64,000 bases of DNA from an uncultured Pseudomonadota bacterium (GTDB lineage Bacteria > Myxococcota_A > UBA796 > SXON01): assembly GCA_903885375.1 (NCBI GenBank), contig CAISIK010000027.1, positions 1-64,000 on the forward strand. The letters run 5' to 3'. Below, one piece after another: positions 33,515 through 50,239 of the stretch. A program made the translations under genes and the position numbers. The notes below the pieces were generated by a model. That model was not told the origin of the DNA. It searched no databases and saw only the letters and a list, made by a program, of their open reading frames with translations. Each line of letters starts with the position of its first letter. Position 1 is the first letter of the stretch.

Positions 33515-36100
33515 CTACCAGACGCCGTTGGTGATCTTGAGCGAGTACTCCTGGCAGGAGTAGGTCGTGCTCGTGCGGAACACGTGGATGTAGTAGTCGT
33601 TGCTCAGGTCGTCGCACTCGTTGTATTCGGAGGCGGCGGCGCAGGTGCGGTAGTCGCTCGGGATGGTGTGGGAGCCGTCGCCCACGTCCTCCTGGTAGAC
33701 CTCGTACTCCGAATAGCCGCTGCCCTCGGGGTCGGTGCCGGAGCCGGTGCTGCACTCCAGCTCGCTCGTGGTGCAGCCGCCCTCGTACACCACGAAAGCG
33801 TACTCGCTGCTGCCGGCCGTCAGCTCCACGTGGAAACGGTAGTTGTTGTAGGTGCCGCTGACCGTGTCGGAGGTGGTGATGGAGTACCAGTCGTCGTCGC
33901 TGGCGTCGAGGATGTTGCCGTTGAACTCGATGGTGGCGGTGCCGTCGGCCGCGAGGGTGCTCCAGTCCACCACGGGGTCGGCGCAGCTGTCGCCGTAGGC
34001 GGTGGTGTCCTCGTAGTCATCCACCGGGTCGCACACCTCGGTGCCGACGATGTTGGACACGGCGGAGGTGTTGCCCGAGGCGTCGGTGGCGGTGGCGTAG
34101 AACGAGTAGGAGAGGCCCGCGGTGAGGCCTTCGCTGAAGCTGAACGTGCCCGCGCCGTTGGCGGTGGCGGTGTCGGTCGTGACGCCCGAGCTGCTGGAGA
34201 TGTACAGCGTGACGTCGGCGAAGGGCTCCGTGGAGCCGCTCACGGTGGCGCTCGTTTCGTTCCGGTACGGGTCGACCGAGTTCAGGATCGGCGCGTCGGG
34301 CGCGGTGTAGTCGCCGACCAGCGCGGAGTCGGTGCCGGAGCCGCTGGTGGCCGTGCCATCGCTGGCGGTCACGGTGCAGGCCCAGGTCTCGCCATCGCTT
34401 GTGTAGGAGGACGCCACGGTGTTGCTGGTGACGGCCGAAACCACGCCGTTCACGGTCCACGCGTAGGTGTAGGTGATGGCATCGCCGTCATCGTCGGTGC
34501 TGGCGCCGGTCACGGTGCAGGTGAGGGTGTCGTCGTCTTCCGGATAGTTCGGCGTGACATCCACCGAGGGCGCCGTGGGGGTGCTGTTCTGGATCGTGCG
34601 CGTGCCGGAGATCACGGAGGCGCCGAGGTCGTAGCCGTCCCACGGGAAGATCTCGACGGTGATGTCGTCGCCCTTCACGAAGTACGTGCCCGCGAGGGTG
34701 GGGTCGGTGGCGCCCGCGATGGCGGCCCCGTTGAGGTACCACTGGTAGGTCTCGCCCTCGGCATCGCCGTCGGGGTCGGAGTAGCCGGTGGCGTTCGCGG
34801 TGAGCGTGTCGTTGGTGTAGGCCGTGGCGGGCGTGATCGTGGCGCTGGTGAGCGAGGGCGGGCCGTTGCCGATCGTGGCGCTGTCGGTGCCGGCGGGGCC
34901 GTCGGAGGCGCCGTCGTTCGGCACCACGTACACGGTCCAAATGTCGCCGCGGGAGGTGGCGCTCGCCGGCAGGGGGTTGCTGGTCCGGCCCGAGTCCACG
35001 CCGTTGAGGTACCAGAAGTAGCTGTAGGTGATGGCGTCGCCATCGGCATCGTAGCTGGGGGTCACGACGGAGACGGCGAGCGGATCGCCCGAGCCCGCGG
35101 GGTCGGGGGTGATGGCCACCGTGGGGGCTTCGGGAGGCTCGTTGATGTAGAGCGTGGCGTAGTCGACCGCGGTGATGCCGTCGGTGTCGGTGGCGGTCAC
35201 GGTGATGGTGTGGACACCGTGGCTGAGCGCGTCGTAGGTGAAGTCGGCGGTGCCATCGCTGCCGGCGCCGCGGGTGGAGAAGATGCCGTCGATGTCGCTC
35301 TCCCACACGAGCCCCACGGCATCGGGGGTGTCCTCGGCGTCGCCCACCGTGGCCTCGAAGTACACGACCTCGCCGATGTTGGCGCGGTCGCCCGACTTCG
35401 GCGCGACGAGGGTGAGGGTGGGACGGGAGCCGGCGGCCACCTGCACGGTGGTGGTGTCGGAGCCGGTGCGGCCCGTGGTGTCGGTGACGGTGAGGGTGAG
35501 CTGGTGCTCGCCTTCGCTCAGTGTGGCGGTGCCGGTGGTCTTTCCATCGCTCGACGGGCTCGACGAGAAGGGCAGCGCGCCATCCCTCGACGAAACCCAG
35601 GCCACCGTGAGCTGCTCGGGAAGGTCCTCGCCGTCGGACACCGCGCCCTCGAACAACGTGAGCTGGTTGGAGAAGTACTCGCCGCCGAACTCGGGCGTGA
35701 CGATCTCGGCGATGGGCGCGTCGTTCTTCTGCACGGTGACGTGCACGGTGCCGACCGCCGATTCGCCGTCGGGATTGATCGCGGTGAGCGTGACGGTGGC
35801 ATCGCCGCGGCTGAACACGGTGGCGCATTCGGAAACGCCGTTGGTGTCGAACACGGCGCCTTCGCAGACCGTGCCGCCGTTGATGGCCCAGGTGGCGCTG
35901 ATCGAGGTCAGCGACGTTTCGAAGTTCTCATCGACCACGCGGCCGCGCATGTTGACGGCCACGCCCTCGTTGAGCGAGGCCCCATCGGCCGGCGACTCGA
36001 TCGCCACCACCGGCGGCTTCGTGAATTTGGTGACGCCGTTGGTGTTCTCACACCCAGCGAGGACGAGGACGGTGCTGAGCACGAGGAGGGCGGGTCGGAT
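33515..36100 (-). CDS. Large Ig-like/PKD-type repeat lipoprotein, possible ATC start
   Basis: IRPALLVLSTVLVLAGCENTNG followed by many repeated beta-sandwich-like units (e.g. DGDAITYTYAWTVNGVV, DPDGDAEGETYQWYLNGA). Track start is GTG at 36082. Confidence 0.75.
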   Translation of the reverse strand: MRPALLVLSTVLVLAGCENTNGVTKFTKPPVVAIESPADGASLNEGVAVNMRGRVVDENFETSLTSISATWAINGGTVCEGAVFDTNGVSECATVFSRGDATVTLTAINPDGESAVGTVHVTVQKNDAPIAEIVTPEFGGEYFSNQLTLFEGAVSDGEDLPEQLTVAWVSSRDGALPFSSSPSSDGKTTGTATLSEGEHQLTLTVTDTTGRTGSDTTTVQVAAGSRPTLTLVAPKSGDRANIGEVVYFEATVGDAEDTPDAVGLVWESDIDGIFSTRGAGSDGTADFTYDALSHGVHTITVTATDTDGITAVDYATLYINEPPEAPTVAITPDPAGSGDPLAVSVVTPSYDADGDAITYSYFWYLNGVDSGRTSNPLPASATSRGDIWTVYVVPNDGASDGPAGTDSATIGNGPPSLTSATITPATAYTNDTLTANATGYSDPDGDAEGETYQWYLNGAAIAGATDPTLAGTYFVKGDDITVEIFPWDGYDLGASVISGTRTIQNSTPTAPSVDVTPNYPEDDDTLTCTVTGASTDDDGDAITYTYAWTVNGVVSAVTSNTVASSYTSDGETWACTVTASDGTATSGSGTDSALVGDYTAPDAPILNSVDPYRNETSATVSGSTEPFADVTLYISSSSGVTTDTATANGAGTFSFSEGLTAGLSYSFYATATDASGNTSAVSNIVGTEVCDPVDDYEDTTAYGDSCADPVVDWSTLAADGTATIEFNGNILDASDDDWYSITTSDTVSGTYNNYRFHVELTAGSSEYAFVVYEGGCTTSELECSTGSGTDPEGSGYSEYEVYQEDVGDGSHTIPSDYRTCAAASEYNECDDLSNDYYIHVFRTSTTYSCQEYSLKITNGVW

Positions 36101-36121
36101 GAGACACCTCCGGAAGTGTGG

Positions 36122-36150
36122 AGTATACGGCGGAACTCCACGAGCAACAA
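36122..36150 (-). promoter_or_regulatory. Sigma70-like promoter TTGTTG-N17-TATACT (minus strand)
   Basis: Reverse complement: caacaa 36145-36150, agtata 36122-36127; GGAGG SD at 36107-36111. Confidence 0.55.
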
Positions 36151-36212
36151 GCTCGGCGAGTCCGTTCTCCTGCGCACCGTCTACGCGGGGCGTCGAGGGT
36201 CGCTCGGGCCGG

Positions 36213-36437
36213 TCAGCCGCCCTCGTCGCCTACCGCTTCCACCGGGCAGCTCTCCAGCGCGAAGCGGAAGAGGTCGAACTCCGCCGGAACGTGGGCGCGT
36301 ACGTAGGCCTTGCGCGCCTCGTCCCGCCCGAAGATCTCGGGCGAGATGTCGGTGCAGGTGTCGCAAGAAACGCAGGTGAGGTCCACGAACCAGGGGCCCG
36401 GGGCATTGCGGGGGTGTCGGCGGGAAGGGTCCGGCAT
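36213..36437 (-). CDS. Single-cluster [4Fe-4S] ferredoxin
   Basis: LTCVSCDTCTDISPEIFGRDE...ALESCPVEAVGDE. Confidence 0.8.
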   Translation of the reverse strand: MPDPSRRHPRNAPGPWFVDLTCVSCDTCTDISPEIFGRDEARKAYVRAHVPAEFDLFRFALESCPVEAVGDEGG

Positions 36438-36439
36438 GT

Positions 36440-37525
36440 TCAGCCTCGGTGGCCATGAACGACGCGGGCGCTCTCGCGGAGGTCGGGGCCGGTCACGGTG
36501 CCGGCTCCTTCGGTTCGCAGACCGTGGTCGTCGGGTTGTTCATCACTGCGCTGCCCACGGCGGGCGGCGATTCGTTCGAGGAGGGCCGGCTCGGGCTCGC
36601 GGCGGAGCACCTTCCGGATGATGGCCTCCGGGTTTCCGGCCACGGGGAAGAGCTCGGCGGGGTCGTAGTGGTAGCCCATCGAGTAGAGCCCGGCGCAGAC
36701 CGGATCGAGCGCGCAGGCATCGCACGCGGGTGCCTTGCCGTGGAGGAACTGCTTCTGGAGGACGAAGCCCTTCTTGTCGAGGAAGCGGATGCAGCGCTCC
36801 TCCTCCTTCACGATCTTGCGGGTTTCCGTCGAACTTTCGGCGTACTCGGGCATGTAGCAGAGGGGCACGCGCTCGGCGCGGAAGGTGCGGCCCACCTGGG
36901 TCAGAAAGCGCATGGCCCGGCGCAGCGAGAGCTCGAACTCGCCGAGGCGCGGGATCACGTCCGGGTTGCGCTCCGCCCGGTTCATGTTCGGGTCCATGTT
37001 GTTCCACACGAAGTGGCGCACGTGCGGGTGCCGGCCCACCACCCAGCGCACCGTCTCGTCGAGGTGGTCGCTGTTGTAGGCGTTGATGACGGTGTTGATG
37101 TCGGCGGTGATGCCGAGGGTGCCCACGTGGCCGAGCGCGCTGTCGATGTGGTGGTGGCTCCCCGGCGTCTGCGTGAGGAAGTCGTGCACCGCCTCGCGGC
37201 TGGAATGGAGGCTCAGGTGCACGTGGGTGAGCCCGCTCTCCACCAGCTCACGGAGGAAGGGCAGCTCAGAAATCCGCTGACCGTTCGTGATCATGCGGAT
37301 GAACAGCCCTTTGCTGTGGGCGTACTGCACGGCCGGCAGGAGCAACGGGGCGATGGTGGGCTCGCCGCCGGTGAGGATGATGCCGTCGTAGCCGCGGGCC
37401 ACGAGATCATCGATGGAGTCGCGCATCTCCTGGTCGCTCAGGCTCACCCCGCTGGGCGGGTTGCTGCAGAAGCGGCACGCCTGCTTGCATTCGCGGGTGA
37501 GCTGGAGGTAGCCGAGGTTCGCCAT
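36440..37525 (-). CDS. Radical SAM protein B
   Basis: LTRECKQACRFCSNPPSG (CX3CX2C); GIILTGGEPTIAP; C-term CDACALDPVCAG; start overlaps upstream stop (ATGA). Confidence 0.88.
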   Translation of the reverse strand: MANLGYLQLTRECKQACRFCSNPPSGVSLSDQEMRDSIDDLVARGYDGIILTGGEPTIAPLLLPAVQYAHSKGLFIRMITNGQRISELPFLRELVESGLTHVHLSLHSSREAVHDFLTQTPGSHHHIDSALGHVGTLGITADINTVINAYNSDHLDETVRWVVGRHPHVRHFVWNNMDPNMNRAERNPDVIPRLGEFELSLRRAMRFLTQVGRTFRAERVPLCYMPEYAESSTETRKIVKEEERCIRFLDKKGFVLQKQFLHGKAPACDACALDPVCAGLYSMGYHYDPAELFPVAGNPEAIIRKVLRREPEPALLERIAARRGQRSDEQPDDHGLRTEGAGTVTGPDLRESARVVHGHRG

Positions 37526-43066: not shown

Positions 43067-44134
43067 TCAGTCGGTCGTCTGGACCACGAGGCCGAGCCGG
43101 TCGCACTCTCGCGTGAGCGCGCCGAGCTCGGCCTCGAGCGGTCGACCGGTGAAGGTGATGGTGCGGGCGCCCTCGCCGTGGAGTTTTACGAGGCGCTGGC
43201 GGAGCGTGCGCGAGTTGTCGGTGTCGGCGACGTCGAGGACAGCGTGCGCGGCGCCTGGCGGCTGCGGGCCCGCCGGACGCAGCTCCTCGGTGCCCCAGCG
43301 CGCCACGTAGGCGGCGTCCACGCCGGGACAGATGGGGCGCAACGCGCAGTGGGTGCACGGCGGCGGCCAGAGGGGAGCCGCCGCCGCCTCCACCGCGATC
43401 GCCGAGTAGCGGTCGGGCTGGGCCACGTCGCGGCGGTCGCCGAGGAGCGCGAGCAGGTCGGGCGCCACGCAGGGGGGGAGCCCCACCACGTCGAGCTCCA
43501 CGCCCTCGGCCCGCGCGCGCTCGGCGGCGGCGCGGATCGGCTCGGCGAGCAGCTCCCAGCGCGGCAGGAGCATGCGGGCCTCCCCCACCGCGGCGCCCAC
43601 CTCCCGCCCCACGTGGGCGCGCACCGACCGCGCGCCCAGCGCCCCGGCCACGCCCACCGTCTCCGCGAGGAGCGGCGCCCCCGTGCGGGTGAGCACGGTG
43701 TTCACCCGCAGGCCGAGGCCGGCGGCCACGCTGCGTCGGGCTGAAGCCACCGCCCGCTTGAAGCTGCCGGGCGTGCGGGTGAGCCAGTCGTGCACCGCCG
43801 CCGTGGGCGCGTGCAACGCAAGGGCCACATCCGTGAGGCCCGCCGCCCGTAGGGCCCCCGCCGCACCCGCCGCGGCGAGCACGGACCCGTTGGTCTGCAG
43901 GGCGATGCGTTGGAAACCCGCCTGGCGCGCGAGCCCGAGCAGATCGAGCAGGTCGCTCCGCAGGGTGATCTCCCCGCCGGCGAGCACGACGCCCTCACGG
44001 TGCGGCAGGCGGGCGAGCGCCGCCGCCAGCTCGGGCAGGCTCGCTTCGCCATGCGCCGCGCGGAGCGCCTCCTGGTCGCAGAAGCGGCAGCCCTGGTTGC
44101 AACGGAAGCCCGTCCGGAGGTCGGTCCAGCGCAT
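43067..44134 (-). CDS. Radical SAM protein C
   Basis: FRCNQGCRFCDQEA; VVLAGGEITLRSD; LALHAPTAAVHDWLTRTPGSFKRA; CTHCALRPICPG. Confidence 0.85.
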   Translation of the reverse strand: MRWTDLRTGFRCNQGCRFCDQEALRAAHGEASLPELAAALARLPHREGVVLAGGEITLRSDLLDLLGLARQAGFQRIALQTNGSVLAAAGAAGALRAAGLTDVALALHAPTAAVHDWLTRTPGSFKRAVASARRSVAAGLGLRVNTVLTRTGAPLLAETVGVAGALGARSVRAHVGREVGAAVGEARMLLPRWELLAEPIRAAAERARAEGVELDVVGLPPCVAPDLLALLGDRRDVAQPDRYSAIAVEAAAAPLWPPPCTHCALRPICPGVDAAYVARWGTEELRPAGPQPPGAAHAVLDVADTDNSRTLRQRLVKLHGEGARTITFTGRPLEAELGALTRECDRLGLVVQTTD

Positions 44135-44137
44135 CGG

Positions 44138-45193
44138 CTACTTGATGGCGCTCAGCTCGGCGTCCCCGTGGATGGGGAGGTAGTTCTTCCACACCCCCTC
44201 GCAGACGTTACCGTACCGGCACCCCTCGCACCGGGCTTGCGGCTGCGTCTTCAGGTCGTACCGCTTGCGGTCCTGCCAGTTGAAGCGCGCGCGCCCGTCT
44301 TCGATCTGCGCGATGCCGTCGGGGAAGCCGTCGGCGGTGAGCGTCTTGATCGAGCAGTCGGTGTCCAGGTCGCGGAACTCGCCGATGTACTTGCGGGCGA
44401 GCGCCTTGTTGCCGAGCAGCTCGGGGGGCAGCACGCAGAGCGGGAAGCTGCCCAGCGTGAACGTGCGCTTGTAGTGTAGCTCGTTGAGCAGCACCGCCTT
44501 GAGGACGTAGGGCACGACATCGGTGAGGCGTGGCACGAGGCTCGTTTCTTCCTCGGCGTAGCCCTCGGAGCGCACGAAGTTCGCCCGCACGTCGTCGAGG
44601 CCCAGCTCGAAGAAGAAGCGGAGGATGTTCGGGAGGTAGCGGTAGTTCCAGGCGTTCACCACCACGTTTACCGACACGTTGTCGCGCATGTGCCCCTCCG
44701 CCTTCTTCTGGAGGAGGTACTGGAGGCCGGACTTCTTCTTCTCGAAGTTGCCGGGTACGCGGGTGAGCGCATCCTCCAGCCGCGGGGTGTGGCCGTGCAT
44801 CGAGATCGTCACGCGGGTGAGCCCGGCGTCGATGATGCGGTCCACGAAGTCGTGGCGGAAGAACTTGGTGCCGTTCGTAGCGAGCGCGATCCGGGTGTAG
44901 CCGAGGTCGCGGGCGAGGGTGACCGCCTGGATGATCCACGGGTAGGTGGTGGGCTCGCCGCCCAGAAAGCCGAGCGAGCGCGTGCCGTTGGCGTACCAGC
45001 GGCGGATTTCCGCCTCCATCTCCGGCCAGGGCATGTACCGGCGCATCTCGGTAGCCGGCAACCCATCGAGGCAGAAGACACACTTGTTGTTGCAGATCTT
45101 CCCGACGTTGATCTCGACGTTGCGCCGCGTGTCACGCCAGAGGTCGCTCCCGCCTTCGGTCAGCGGAGCGGGAGCGGGGCTGACCTCGTTCAA
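44138..45193 (-). CDS. Radical SAM protein D
   Basis: VGKICNNKCVFCLDG; LGFLGGEPTTYP; ISMHGHTPRLEDALTRVPGNFEKK; CEGCRYGNVCEG. TTG start overlapping upstream stop (TTGA). Confidence 0.87.
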   Translation of the reverse strand: MNEVSPAPAPLTEGGSDLWRDTRRNVEINVGKICNNKCVFCLDGLPATEMRRYMPWPEMEAEIRRWYANGTRSLGFLGGEPTTYPWIIQAVTLARDLGYTRIALATNGTKFFRHDFVDRIIDAGLTRVTISMHGHTPRLEDALTRVPGNFEKKKSGLQYLLQKKAEGHMRDNVSVNVVVNAWNYRYLPNILRFFFELGLDDVRANFVRSEGYAEEETSLVPRLTDVVPYVLKAVLLNELHYKRTFTLGSFPLCVLPPELLGNKALARKYIGEFRDLDTDCSIKTLTADGFPDGIAQIEDGRARFNWQDRKRYDLKTQPQARCEGCRYGNVCEGVWKNYLPIHGDAELSAIK

Positions 45194-46146
45194 GTGGCCT
45201 CCATGGCGTGGAGTTCGCCGTGACCGTACAGTTCGACATACCGCGCGAAGACCCCGTGACACAAGCGATTCCAGCTACAGGACTCGCATACGGCCGGCTG
45301 GGTGCGCTTTCGGTCGGGCGCCCACGAGTAGATGCCCTCGAGCGAGACCCGGTCGGGGTGGCGGGTCCACTCGAAGGTCACGCGCGGGTTCCAATGGAGA
45401 TCGTTCGCGTACATGCGGGCCTCGCCGAGCACGCAGGCGGGGAGGCCGAAGAACCGCACGATGGAATTGCCCGCGGCCGCGAGGATCTTCGGCACCAGCG
45501 GGCGCACCTCGTCGAGCCGCAGGGTGAGCGCCTCGTAGGCCTGCTCGCCGGCGCCTTCGGGCGTGACGTTGGAGATCACGATCAGCTCGGCGCCCCGCGC
45601 GCTCGCGAGCCGCACCGTCTCCACGATGTGCTCGGCGTTCTCCCGCACGAGCACGGTGTTCACGAAGGTGCGGAAGCCGGGGAAGCTGCGGGCGTTGGCC
45701 ATGGCGGCCGAGAGCCGGTCGAAGCTGCCCTTGCGTCGCGTCTGGGCGTCGTGGACCTCGGCGGTGGGGCCGTGCAGCGAGAACAGCGCCTCGCTCAGCC
45801 AGGGCAGGGCGCGGGCGGCAAACGCGGGGTCGGCGAGCCGGGTGCCGATGGTGCCGATGCTCGTGCGCATGCCGAGCTTTCGGGCGAGCTGGAGGATTTC
45901 GACGAACTGGGGGTGGATCGTGGGCTCGCCGCCCGTGAAGTGCACCCCGTCGATGCCGCGCTCCGCCTGCTCGCGGAGCACCCGAGCCACCCGCCCGAAG
46001 GTGACGGGAAAGGCGGCGTAGTCGGCCATCCGGGTCTCTTCCGAGCAGAAGGTGCAGCGCTCCGGGCAGTGGTAGGTGATGTGGAACTCGAGCCGGCGCA
46101 TGGGCTGGCCGGAGACCGGGTCGATCCAGGGGGGGGGCTCCGTCAT
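45190..46146 (-). CDS. Radical SAM protein E
   Basis: ITYHCPERCTFCSEETR; VHFTGGEPTIHPQF; FSLHGPTAEVHDAQTRRKGSFDRL; CESCSWNRLCHG. Confidence 0.88.
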   Translation of the reverse strand: MTEPPPWIDPVSGQPMRRLEFHITYHCPERCTFCSEETRMADYAAFPVTFGRVARVLREQAERGIDGVHFTGGEPTIHPQFVEILQLARKLGMRTSIGTIGTRLADPAFAARALPWLSEALFSLHGPTAEVHDAQTRRKGSFDRLSAAMANARSFPGFRTFVNTVLVRENAEHIVETVRLASARGAELIVISNVTPEGAGEQAYEALTLRLDEVRPLVPKILAAAGNSIVRFFGLPACVLGEARMYANDLHWNPRVTFEWTRHPDRVSLEGIYSWAPDRKRTQPAVCESCSWNRLCHGVFARYVELYGHGELHAMEAT

Positions 46147-47147
46147 GCTTCCGCCAGCCGTTCGCGGCGCGCGAAGTAGGCGGGGTAGAGCCGGTTGCAC
46201 AGCCGGGTGAGGGCGGCATCGGCGGCGGCGGTGCTCTGCATCACGTGCTCGCCCAGGGTGTCGTGCAGGAAGCCGCCCGCCTCCTGGCCGGCGGCCACCA
46301 GCGCCTCGGCGGCTGGCGGGGCATCGAGGGTACCGAGGGCGAAGCGCTCGCGGAGGTGGTCGAGGTTGCCCGCGAGGATGAGGTTGTTCGCGTAGATTCG
46401 GCGGTCGCTGTCCACCACGAAGCCGGTGTTGTAGAAGGCGACGGGCGCCCGCACGAAGAGGTTGCGCAGGTAGAGGCGCTCGCCGGCCGCCCACGCGCGC
46501 TCGAAGGCGGCGGCGATGGCCGAGAAGGATTGGTTCAAGGCTTCGAGTTGTTCGGGGCGCCAGGGCAGGTAGTAGCCCGGGAGCAGGTTGAACCGGCGAA
46601 CGCCGAGCGAGCGCAGGTACGCGAAGTTGTCGGCGGCCCGCGCGGCCGTGCTCGGCGCGATGGTCTGGGTGACGACGAAGCGCGGCAGACCGAGGAGCCT
46701 CGGCAGGAGCGCCACCACCCGATCGTGCGAGGGCGACCCGCGGCGGAGCCCGTCGTGGTCGCGGGCCACGCCATCGAGGCTCAGCGTGAGTGTGACGCTC
46801 GGGTGGGCGTGCAGCCACGCGATCCAGTGCTCGTCGAGGTGGGTGCCGTTGGTGCTGAGGTACACGTTCACCTCGGACGGCGCGGCGTCCACCGCCGCCT
46901 TCACCACCTCGGGCACCAGCAGCGGCTCGCCGCCGAAGAGCTTGGCGTCTCCCCCGCCGTAACGTTCCACGAAGAGGGCGATGGCGCGCCGGGCGTCGTC
47001 GGCGCCGAGGTCGGGCTCACCGTCCTTCACCGTGGGGCAGTAGGCGCAGCGCAGGTCGCAACGGCGCGTGACCACGAGGATCAGCGCGTTGCGCCACCGT
47101 TCGGCGCGAACGCCGCTACCACTGGCCGTGACTGCCGTGGCTGCCAT
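46143..47147 (-). CDS. Radical SAM protein F
   Basis: VVTRRCDLRCAYCPTVKDGE; KLFGGEPLLVPEVVKAAV; YLSTNGTHLD; LSLDGVARDHDGLR. Likely ATG at 47147 lies inside the precursor repeat. Confidence 0.85.
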   Translation of the reverse strand: MAATAVTASGSGVRAERWRNALILVVTRRCDLRCAYCPTVKDGEPDLGADDARRAIALFVERYGGGDAKLFGGEPLLVPEVVKAAVDAAPSEVNVYLSTNGTHLDEHWIAWLHAHPSVTLTLSLDGVARDHDGLRRGSPSHDRVVALLPRLLGLPRFVVTQTIAPSTAARAADNFAYLRSLGVRRFNLLPGYYLPWRPEQLEALNQSFSAIAAAFERAWAAGERLYLRNLFVRAPVAFYNTGFVVDSDRRIYANNLILAGNLDHLRERFALGTLDAPPAAEALVAAGQEAGGFLHDTLGEHVMQSTAAADAALTRLCNRLYPAYFARRERLAEA

Positions 47148-47583
47148 GCGATCCGTGGCTGCCGTGGGAGCCGTGGGAGCCGTGGCTGCCGTGGGAGCCG
47201 TGGGAGCCGTGGCTGCCGTGTGATCCGTGGCTGCCATGCGATCCGTGGGAGCCGTGGGAGCCGTGGGAGCCGTGCGATCCGTGCGAGCCGTGCGAGCCGT
47301 GGCTGCAATGCTGCGCGAGGAGCACGGCCGTGCTGTCGGGCGCCGTGCCGCTCCGGTCGAGGAACGAGGGGTCGAGCTCCATCTCGCCCGCGGACGCCTG
47401 CAGGAGCAGGAGCGACTGGGCCACAGCGTCGGTCGGCTGGTTGGCCGCTTTGGCTTCCTGAGCCTGGAGGAGCTGGAAGGCCTCCCGCTTGAGCGTGGGG
47501 AACTCCGCCTCCTCGGCGGCCTTCACCCAGTCGGCTCCGGCTTTCTTCCCCGGGAACGGGGCCTTGGGATCGTCTTTGCTCAT
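47116..47583 (-). CDS. His-Xaa-Ser-type repeat precursor (HxsA-like RiPP precursor candidate)
   Basis: 155 aa; leader MSKDDPKAPFPGKKAGADWVKAAEEAEFPTLKREAF... then AQHC-(SHG)x20-QW; ATGA-coupled to the HxsB-like gene. Confidence 0.85.
   Translation of the reverse strand: MSKDDPKAPFPGKKAGADWVKAAEEAEFPTLKREAFQLLQAQEAKAANQPTDAVAQSLLLLQASAGEMELDPSFLDRSGTAPDSTAVLLAQHCSHGSHGSHGSHGSHGSHGSHGSHGSHGSHGSHGSHGSHGSHGSHGSHGSHGSHGSHGSHGQW
47125..47304 (-). repeat. 20 tandem 9-bp units encoding Ser-His-Gly
   Basis: Read directly: gccgtgact gccgtggct gccatgcga ... gccgtgcga gccgtggct on the + strand. Confidence 0.95.
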
Positions 47584-49100
47584 GCCATCACCTCGCCCGA
47601 AGGCGCGTAGGGAGTGGTGCCGGGCCGGGAACGCTGGATGGTCCAGCGGCGGAAGATGCGTTCGATGGAGCCGTCGGTGTCGTTGGCGAGGAGGTGGTAC
47701 AGGTACTGCTGCACCCCGTAGAACTCCTGGCACTTCCGGGAGAGCGGACGCTGCCCGAAGATGTCCCCGTCGAACATGTAGTTGTGCAGCGGCTGCACGC
47801 CGCACGTGGGCTTGTACACGCACGAGTGGCAGGCCGGCAACGAGTCCTGGATGGAGGCGACCGCGAGCGCGCGTACGGTGGGGTGCCGCAGCACCTCATC
47901 GAAGGTGGACGACTCCACGTGCCCCAGCTTGAAGAAGTCGTTGCCCATGTGGGCGGCCATGCGGCCTTCATCGTCGGTGTAGATCGCCCCGTCGAAGTTG
48001 TAGGCGAGCTGCGCGCTGCCGGAGCCGCAGGGCGAGCGGCAGTCGCTGTAGTTCGGGTCGTCAGGGGTGAGCATCTTCGTGAGGAAGATGGAGGCGAGCC
48101 GCTCCTGCACGAACACACCCTGCCGGTTCAGGTCGAGGATGTAGTCCAGCGTGGTGCGGTAGAACTCGAGGAACTCGGGCATCGTGTACCCGATCTGCTT
48201 CCACGTGTTCACCGCGAACCCGAAGGGGTTCAGGGGGCGAAGGTGCAGGCTGCGAATGCCGCGGTTCACGTACTCGTCGACGATCTCGCGCCCCCGGTCG
48301 AGCGAGTACCGGGTCGTCGTCATCAACGCATCCACGTGGAAGAGGTCGGGGTCGAAGCCCCGACGCACCCACTCGCCGTTGAAGCGGTTCATCCAGTGGG
48401 TGACGGTTTCCCAGGAGCTGGACTTCTCCATCCAGCCGCGGTTCTTGTCGTGGAGGTCCTGCGGGCCATCGAGCGAGGTGCATACCATCACGCCGCGGTC
48501 GAGCAGGTAGTTCATCTTCTCGTCGGTCATCAGCGTGAGGTTCGACACCAGCGAGAGGAGGAGCTCCCTGTTCTCGTAGCGGTTCTTCTCGAGCGCGTAG
48601 TCGCAGATGAACTGGATCACGGGGAAGTTGGCCGTGGGCTCGCCGCCCTGGAACTCGAAACCAAGCACGGGCGAGGGCGACCGGAACACGAAGTCCACCA
48701 CCTTCCGCGCGGTTTCGAGGGACATGTCGGTGTCCACCCGGTCCATGTCGGTGCGGCTGGCGTGGCAGTAGCGGCAGGCGTGGTTGCAGCGCAGCGTCGT
48801 GACGACGGCGTGCAGGTGCGGGCCATGCTGGAGGAAGGCCTTCTTCCGCCGCAGCTTGGCCGCGAGCGCATCGATGTCCATGTCGCGCTTGAGGAAGTAC
48901 CGGCGGCGGAGCGACTCGTAGAGCTCCTCCCCCGGCTGCACCTTGCCAGCGATGAACCGGCGGAAGTCCTCCGGGCTGAGGAAGAGGTGCTCGCCCACGT
49001 CGTTGGTGAGCAGCACACGACCATCCACCATGCCGTAGCGGAAGAAGCCGACGGACTCCTTGTCGAAGGTCGCAGGGTCGACGATGAGCGGGGTGTGCAT
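47580..49100 (-). CDS. HxsB-like radical SAM/SPASM maturase
   Basis: TLRCNHACRYCHASRTDMDRVDTDMSLETARKVVDFVFRSPSPVLGFEFQGGEPTANFPVIQF; TSLDGPQDLHDKNRG; SPCGSGSAQLAYNFDGAIYTDDEGRMAAHMGNDFFKLG; CHSCVYKPTCGV. Confidence 0.9.
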   Translation of the reverse strand: MHTPLIVDPATFDKESVGFFRYGMVDGRVLLTNDVGEHLFLSPEDFRRFIAGKVQPGEELYESLRRRYFLKRDMDIDALAAKLRRKKAFLQHGPHLHAVVTTLRCNHACRYCHASRTDMDRVDTDMSLETARKVVDFVFRSPSPVLGFEFQGGEPTANFPVIQFICDYALEKNRYENRELLLSLVSNLTLMTDEKMNYLLDRGVMVCTSLDGPQDLHDKNRGWMEKSSSWETVTHWMNRFNGEWVRRGFDPDLFHVDALMTTTRYSLDRGREIVDEYVNRGIRSLHLRPLNPFGFAVNTWKQIGYTMPEFLEFYRTTLDYILDLNRQGVFVQERLASIFLTKMLTPDDPNYSDCRSPCGSGSAQLAYNFDGAIYTDDEGRMAAHMGNDFFKLGHVESSTFDEVLRHPTVRALAVASIQDSLPACHSCVYKPTCGVQPLHNYMFDGDIFGQRPLSRKCQEFYGVQQYLYHLLANDTDGSIERIFRRWTIQRSRPGTTPYAPSGEVMA

Positions 49101-49330
49101 CACGCCTGCGCCCGCCGCGTGAGGATGGTCTCGAACAGGGCGTGATTGCCCAGCTCGTCGGCCAGCCGTTCCCGCACGCTCTCGCGCACCGGCACGATGT
49201 TCACCAGCCAGTCGGCCTCGGACTCGCCGAGCTCCGACGCCCCCAGCGCGGTGAAGCGGCTCGCCGCCCGGGCCACCGCATCGCCATCGTAGAGCGACTT
49301 GTGGAAGCGGAGCTGCAGCGGCTCAGCCAT
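49100..49330 (-). CDS. Small HxsD-like protein, second copy
   Basis: MAEPLQLRFHKSLYDGDAVARAASRFTALGASELGESEADWLVNIVP; 76 aa. Confidence 0.5.
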   Translation of the reverse strand: MAEPLQLRFHKSLYDGDAVARAASRFTALGASELGESEADWLVNIVPVRESVRERLADELGNHALFETILTRRAQA

Positions 49331-49748
49331 TGGTGGGCTTCTCCCACGGCACCGGGATGTCCAGATCGTCGCTGGCCATCTCTTCGGCATCGAGCTCGGC
49401 GAGCAGCTTGTCGATCGTGGAGGGGCCCTCGGCGGCGAAGAGGGCGCGCGCGAGGATGTACTCGCGGAGGCGGCCGTTGCTCTCGCCGATCTGCTTGCGG
49501 AGCGCCTGGTTCAACAGCTCGTTCGCGAACTGGCCCGACAGCGATTCGAGCTCCTCCGCCGAAGCCGGCCCGCGGGCGCGAAGGGCCACGACCACCTGAC
49601 GGTCGGCGGCGCGGTCGAGAAAGACGTAGGCTTTGTCGATGAACAGGTACGCGGCGCCCATGATGACGTCGAGCGCGTAGATCGACTCATCAATGGTGAA
49701 CCGGACGCGGCGTTCGGAGACTTCGGCCTGGAGGGCGTTGTCGCTCAT
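49323..49748 (-). CDS. HxsD-like protein
   Basis: VRFTIDESIYALDVIMGAAYLFIDKAYVFLDRAADRQVVVALRARGPASAEELESLSGQFANELLNQALRKQI. Confidence 0.7.
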   Translation of the reverse strand: MSDNALQAEVSERRVRFTIDESIYALDVIMGAAYLFIDKAYVFLDRAADRQVVVALRARGPASAEELESLSGQFANELLNQALRKQIGESNGRLREYILARALFAAEGPSTIDKLLAELDAEEMASDDLDIPVPWEKPTNG

Positions 49749-50239
49749 GCGGAGGGGGCTCCCGGCGCGAGGCGGTGGGCCGCCGCAGCCATGGCATCGG
49801 GGTGGGACCACACGCGGTCGGCGTGGGGGCTGAGCTCGCGGATGCGGGCGAGGTCGGAGTTTTCGTTCTCGGCGGCCACGGCGGCCAGCCGACGCAGCGC
49901 GCGGCCGAGGGACTCCTCCATCTCGGCGGTGCCATCGCCGCCATCCATCACGATGAAGTCGAGGAGCTCGGTAGAGGCCGGCCCTCGCGGGGCGCCGTTC
50001 CGAAGGCAGACATCCACGCGCACCTGGCGGCCGGCCGCGTGCGCCATCGTGAGGGTGACGGCGCCCTGGGCGGGCGGGTACACCCGCTGCAGGCGCCACC
50101 CGAGCCCCAATTCCGCGTCCGGACCGAGCGGATGGAAGAGGAACCCGGGATGGAGCGCCTCGGCGGCGAGGGCTGCGCCCGGCGCGGCGGCGGCGATTCC
50201 GAAGAGCGCGAACTGGACGAAGGAGCGCCGGGTGTTCAT
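49745..50239 (-). CDS. Tat-signal exported protein of unknown function, first gene of the Hxs-like operon
   Basis: MNTRRSFVQFALFGIAAAAPGAALAAEA; stop overlaps the start of the HxsD-like gene (ATGA). Confidence 0.7.
   Translation of the reverse strand: MNTRRSFVQFALFGIAAAAPGAALAAEALHPGFLFHPLGPDAELGLGWRLQRVYPPAQGAVTLTMAHAAGRQVRVDVCLRNGAPRGPASTELLDFIVMDGGDGTAEMEESLGRALRRLAAVAAENENSDLARIRELSPHADRVWSHPDAMAAAAHRLAPGAPSA

Follow-up and report, generated by a model that had tools for sequence, protein, structure and literature searches.

The gene at 47116–47583 is, by its sequence, a real coding gene under purifying selection, and its product, HxsA4, serves as precursor for a peptide that is made on ribosomes and then modified by enzymes, as indicated by its family membership, leader, repeat register and operon. 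It lies in the window, the 64,000-nucleotide stretch of DNA analysed here, from what is taken to be a lineage of Myxococcota. The HxsA4 family is already named and chemically uncharacterised, and the window's precursor is a fresh member of it. The His-Xaa-Ser (Hxs) system is widespread and was named over a decade ago, reportedly by Haft and Basu. The locus is a variant of it, whose set of enzymes has no name and which includes a probable partner protein bearing a twin-arginine (Tat-like) signal (Table 1). Both the enlarged set of genes and the connection with Tat seem to have gone unrecognised so far. To my knowledge, seven radical SAM genes around one 155-residue peptide are unusual.

Table 1. 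Coordinates of the precursor, its repeat array and the surrounding genes in the window.
Feature	Position	Strand	Basis or remark
HxsA4 precursor peptide, 155 aa	47116..47583	−	NF038313 score, residue counts, purifying selection
Array, 20 SHG units	47125..47304	−	Tandem Repeats Finder, codon comparison; variation wholly synonymous
HxsB radical SAM/SPASM maturase	47580..49103	−	TIGR03978 510.9 bits (cut-off 370)
HxsD-related small protein (HxsD_rel)	49100..49330	−	NF038315 54.9 bits (cut-off 41)
HxsD	49323..49748	−	TIGR03976 65 bits (cut-off 50)
Unnamed 164-aa protein, twin-arginine (Tat-like) signal	49745..50239	−	Overlaps HxsD start; upstream of HxsD in QW-type loci
rS1, PapB-like radical SAM	46143..47147	−	NCBIfam scores below cut-offs; kept in QW-type clusters
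rS2, HxsC/HxsC4-like radical SAM	45190..46146	−	NF038332 86.5 bits, below cut-off
rS3, HxsC4-like radical SAM	44138..45193	−	NF038332 153.3 bits (cut-off 500)
rS4, HxsC4-like radical SAM	43067..44134	−	NF038332 87.8 bits; conserved at family level
r5, radical SAM, ~573 aa	37525..39246	−	Satellite pair with r6; NF038332 88.1 bits, below cut-off
r6, HxsC-like radical SAM	36440..37525	−	Overlaps r5; TIGR03977 83.8 bits (cut-off 267.9)

The precursor gene and its repeat register

Translation of the ORF gives 20 SHG units without interruption, 21 His, a sole Cys at residue 93 and a GQW-stop end, with 9 K/R and 14 D/E in the first 90 residues. This confirms the original prediction of a charged leader, a lone Cys, a 20-fold SHG repeat and a terminal Gln-Trp. 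The 155-residue ORF scores 122.6 bits against the NCBIfam HxsA4 profile NF038313 (cut-off 55), and the precursor scores 84.9 bits with this profile in a six-frame search. A profile search for classical HxsA (TIGR03979, cut-off 121.65) found no match anywhere in the genome, bearing out the predicted difference from HxsA proteins, and the HGS array occurs only once within the source genome. Tandem Repeats Finder puts this array at 47125–47303.

The 20 units are encoded by nine distinct 9-mers, and their 27 base differences from the 9-mer consensus, which include switches between AGY and TCN Ser codons, cause no amino-acid change; by random change in a 9-mer, a single substitution would be silent in ∼26% of cases and a pair in 5%. 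A chance origin of the array is therefore excluded. Between the window and its nearest relative, locus L039, the leader has a dN of 0.055 and a dS of 0.75 (dN/dS ∼0.07). A non-coding or frame-shifted tract might be suspected, as this is a simple tandem repeat whose copy number often changes, but it is refuted by these 27 synonymous differences, by the dN/dS of the leader and by the frame being kept in relatives, and its probability is next to nil. The original prediction had staked itself on this point, naming an unconserved leader or broken frames in homologues as the outcome that would count against it; both leader motif and frame are kept, which favours the precursor.

Related loci supplied 127 unique precursors, most of them retrieved with a pattern containing Cys. 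Their arrays start with HCS in 125 cases, end in HGS-W or HGQ-W in nearly all, and comprise between 6 and 59 units. These starts and ends set the repeat register as H-x-S. In the window, the leader spans residues 1–91 and the core reads (HCS)(HGS)19(HGQ)W, the last unit having Gln in place of Ser. Since relatives share this register, the window's Cys occupies the 'x' position of unit 1; the Cys is single, as predicted, but does not stand immediately before the repeat.

Cys conservation was counted in HMM-selected loci only, as pattern-selected loci are biased for Cys. HMM selection gave 81 unique precursors, of which 76 start with HCS (75 by automatic call plus the interrupted array of L189, which likewise starts with HCS), three with HAS and two with HGS. 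The Cys is thus kept in ∼94% and replaced by Ala or Gly in five, and on the HxsB tree it was lost about four times, with HxsB staying. The core process therefore does not depend on the Cys, which weakens the earlier idea of a cross-link or anchoring site. Of 855 inner units, 854 have His and all have Ser, and the middle residue is Gly in 828, with 27 exceptions (25 Ala, one Ser and one Cys). Trp is the last residue of all 78 complete HMM-selected precursors, preceded by Ser (SW) in 51 and by Gln (QW) in 27. The alignment of homologues that had been proposed as a check thus bears out a variable repeat number and a mostly kept Cys; the QW end, by contrast, is not universal. The longest arrays (42 to 59 HxS units) occur in L112, L128, L225 and L205, at times as two precursors in tandem.

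The leader carries the motif F/L-P-x-hydrophobic-x-K/R, followed by L and E, which in the window reads FPTLKREAFQLLQAQE. This pattern, written after reading the sequences, matches 71% of 145 leaders, in both subtypes, versus 0.3% after shuffling. The window's protein thus has both features of HxsA4 membership, the H-x-S array and the conserved leader.

Operon, subtypes and proposed Tat-signal partner

The operon runs, 5′ to 3′, from the Tat-signal protein through HxsD, HxsD_rel, HxsB, HxsA4, rS1, rS2 and rS3 to rS4. Most junctions are overlaps of a few bases; the HxsB stop overlaps the HxsA4 start (ATGA), and the rS1 ATG lies 32 bp within the HxsA4 gene. HxsB (TIGR03978) and HxsD (TIGR03976), both above cut-off, flank the precursor and place the locus in the His-Xaa-Ser system. 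The iterative modification that had been suggested from the regular His/Ser spacing is strongly backed by these adjoining genes and by HxsA4 membership. The r5/r6 pair, 4 kb beyond the operon, brings the radical SAM total around the one precursor to seven, including HxsB. The radical SAM proteins of the operon retain the CX3CX2C motif; rS1 is devoid of auxiliary-cluster Cys, and rS2–rS4 have a CX2CX5C motif, near the C-terminus in rS2. None of the six radical SAM proteins beyond HxsB reaches the cut-off for HxsC (TIGR03977, 267.9; best in the genome ∼84 bits) or HxsC4 (NF038332, 500; rS3 153.3, others under 90), and the conserved operon includes neither an exporter nor a protease. Homologues of r5/r6 adjoin precursors of both subtypes across the phylum; in L072, L185 and L207 they are at times divergent and ≤30 bases from the HxsA4 precursor. 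Directly downstream of r6 (33518–36229, reverse strand) is a large protein with bacterial Ig-like domains, a lipoprotein-like start and a Trp end.

Across the phylum, HxsB exceeds its cut-off in 125/377 genomes and HxsA4 in 115/377. HxsA4 is present in 11/11 sampled genomes of the genus, which fits a core function, and the gene order from HxsD to rS4 is kept across genus and family on every contig of sufficient length. rS4 was found in the window's own family; its profile matches outside the family were discarded as low-complexity artefacts. Stand-alone precursors have no maturase among their conserved neighbours, and in the 18 such genomes checked HxsB was always found elsewhere. For non-redundant loci with HxsB and sufficient downstream sequence, automatic calling places rS1 in none of 24 SW loci and in 27 of 29 QW loci; of the remaining two QW loci, one has a fused ORF with rS1 in it. 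This is not repeated co-evolution, a reading that was rejected: as the ending changes only once on the HxsB tree, the association of QW with rS1 amounts to one lineage event. The SW subtype, having fewer enzymes, offers a comparison case for the QW subtype.

The Tat-signal protein lies directly upstream of HxsD in 45/48 QW-type loci, and its family may be the operon's ninth component. Profile searches found no Pfam or NCBIfam domain in it. The twin Arg is present in most members of the family, and SW loci contain more remote ones. The assignment of Tat signals is by motif; just two sequences pass the TIGR01409 cut-off (16.7), and the window's partner scores 13.8. Separately, the precursor itself bears a Tat-like signal within its leader in 23 cases, each either SW-type or truncated at the end of a contig (e.g., KLTRRDFLSSSSVVLLATAGTAIA). 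The Tat protein occurs in the locus of none of these 23, versus 47 of the 124 that carry no signal (Fisher p 1.2e-4, which ignores descent and locus length, and a partner may seem missing where the locus sequence is short). In the leaders of L144, L148, L159, L108, L115, L169 and L117, the maturase motif is accompanied by a twin-arginine-like signal and by what may be an AxA cleavage site. The 49745–50239 protein is probably an exported partner, and these observations suggest export of the modified peptide by the Tat route, a carrier of folded, finished proteins. If right, this link would show the product's destination and the reason for making it first in the cytosol.

Proposed modification and rival explanations

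A structural model of HxsB (pLDDT 86.5, pTM 0.88) has, at residues 22–92, three strands followed by three helices, which is the order of an RRE. Its alignment with CteB (Z 35.6) begins at residue 19 and so spans the CteB RRE; anSME is likewise a top structural match (Z 36.1), and EpeE structures align at Z about 16. The CX3CX2C motif is intact in 45/46 HxsB proteins, and most lack some of the Cys residues of auxiliary cluster I. In the model, HxsB thus has both features of an RRE-guided radical SAM maturase, the leader-binding domain and CX3CX2C, and is predicted to bind the leader. By profile, it is nearest to thioether makers (PapB 98, CcpM 96, SCIFF/CteB type 82 bits) and the sulfatase maturase (77 bits); its scores for the cyclophane-forming enzymes (XyeB 51, YhhB 47, GrrM 38, FxsB 37 bits) are far below their cut-offs of 310–450. 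In L202, an HxsB homologue with the CX3CX2C Cys replaced in the alignment, possibly an inactive paralogue, lies beside an intact precursor. HxsD was rejected as the leader-binding RRE domain, as its model (pLDDT 86; element order beta-beta-alpha-beta-beta-long alpha) does not have the winged-helix order; its best Foldseek match, an RNA polymerase subunit (E 1.6e-3), fell to background level with a second aligner (Z ≤7.5).

The explanation I favour, and hold to be rather probable, is that leader-guided radical SAM enzymes modify HxS unit after HxS unit in the cytosol, and that Tat then delivers the product to the envelope. The RRE-like N-terminal domain of HxsB would dock the leader motif of HxsA4, and HxsB would then work along the core and modify each H-x-S triplet, aided by HxsD/HxsD_rel and the HxsC-like radical SAM proteins. 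The modified product would reach the envelope by its own Tat-like signal, as in some relatives, or by a Tat-exported partner, as in the window. There it probably serves a physiological role, for instance in handling metals, and not as an antibiotic.

As to the reaction, the searchable literature reports none for any Hxs enzyme. The leading guess, a tentative one, is a His-Ser cross-link per unit, in which the His ring may be joined to the Ser beta-carbon two residues on, giving a three-residue ring. It is prompted by a repeat period equal to the ring size, by the fixed His and Ser and by precedent for both partners, as HaaB and YhhB form His C2 to C-beta bonds and MscB a Phe to Ser C-beta bond (PMC11002830). 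Against it stand the profile scores of HxsB, nearer to thioether makers and the sulfatase maturase than to ring formers. The number of enzymes also counts against the favoured explanation, seven being more than one uniform modification needs. A radical SAM assembly line of up to seven enzymes, turning an open-length HxS polymer into a His-Ser cross-linked chain that Tat exports, either on a fused signal or through a dedicated partner, would be a new polymer class of Myxococcota, which I think improbable.

HxsB might instead oxidise each Ser in the manner of anSME, yielding for instance formylglycine, and metal would then be bound by the abundant His. The structural match to anSME and the fully conserved Ser agree with this, as does the invariant D378, which a profile alignment places at anSME D277, presumably the catalytic base; this alignment also speaks for the favoured explanation. 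Such an Asp may be common in SPASM proteins and is therefore not diagnostic, and oxidation would work without a His fixed so strictly two residues ahead of the Ser; I regard it as unlikely. Conversion of His or Ser to D-forms along the array is quite unlikely: the periodic sequence suits iterative action, and HxsB has an invariant C208 outside the cluster motifs, recalling the Cys with which known peptide epimerases return a hydrogen atom (PMC8326336), but the EpeE structures match the model far less well than CteB and anSME.

The two other alternatives leave the array itself unmodified. That the single Cys forms a thioether or anchors the product, with the array as a passive spacer, would suit both the similarity of HxsB to thioether-forming maturases and the retention of Cys in 76/81 precursors; the five Ala or Gly variants, the repeated loss of Cys while HxsB stays, and a His/Ser strictness that a spacer would not keep make it very unlikely. 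The last possibility is a collagen-like or metal-binding repeat protein that undergoes no modification at all. HxsA4 does match Pfam Collagen (PF01391, 39.3 vs 27.2 bits), with Gly at every third residue, and 21 His could bind metal. This match reflects composition only and the array has no Pro, so HxsA4 is not filed as collagen-like; with maturase genes and leader conserved, and His and Ser stricter than Gly, this reading is highly improbable.

Relation to known systems

The window shares with the HxsA4 system (NF038313) the leader, the HCS start, the HGS array, the terminal Trp and the HxsB and HxsD partners. It differs in that its lineage ends in HGQW rather than HGSW, in that it has no protein passing the HxsC cut-off but has, close by, six other radical SAM proteins of HxsC/PapB-like type, and in adding a Tat-signal partner outside the named set. 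Triceptides (MscB/FxsB, GrrM/OscB, XyeB, YhhB, HaaB) resemble it in their aromatic-x-third residue motif, with His and Ser each precedented as partners (PMC11002830); by profile, however, HxsB falls outside their enzyme families, and a ring in HxsA4 is hypothetical. The closest folds to the HxsB model are the thioether maturases CteB/PapB and anSME, and CteB has the RRE and SPASM layout seen in the model. HxsA4, in contrast to the CteB/PapB systems, has only one Cys for 20 units, and most HxsB differ from these maturases and anSME in their incomplete auxiliary cluster I Cys set. In the TvgA/TvgB poly-cyclopropylglycine system, a single radical SAM enzyme likewise acts on all units of a short tandem repeat (PMC9062424), but motif and enzyme family are others and Hxs partners are absent.

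The lineage is a clean test case: its operon is compact, its single precursor has a uniform core, and Cys-less variants exist in nature, as does the SW subtype. Precursors of a different end were also observed: L087, L113 and L167 pair HxsB with HCS(HGS)n precursors that end in Tyr or a Cys-rich tail and have a hydrophobic segment in the leader, L087 and L113 being from MAGs labelled Buchananbacteria and Parcubacteria. Finally, L067 and L069 are public MAG contigs labelled Klebsiella pneumoniae with Hxs precursors of the Myxococcota type, and these labels look wrong.
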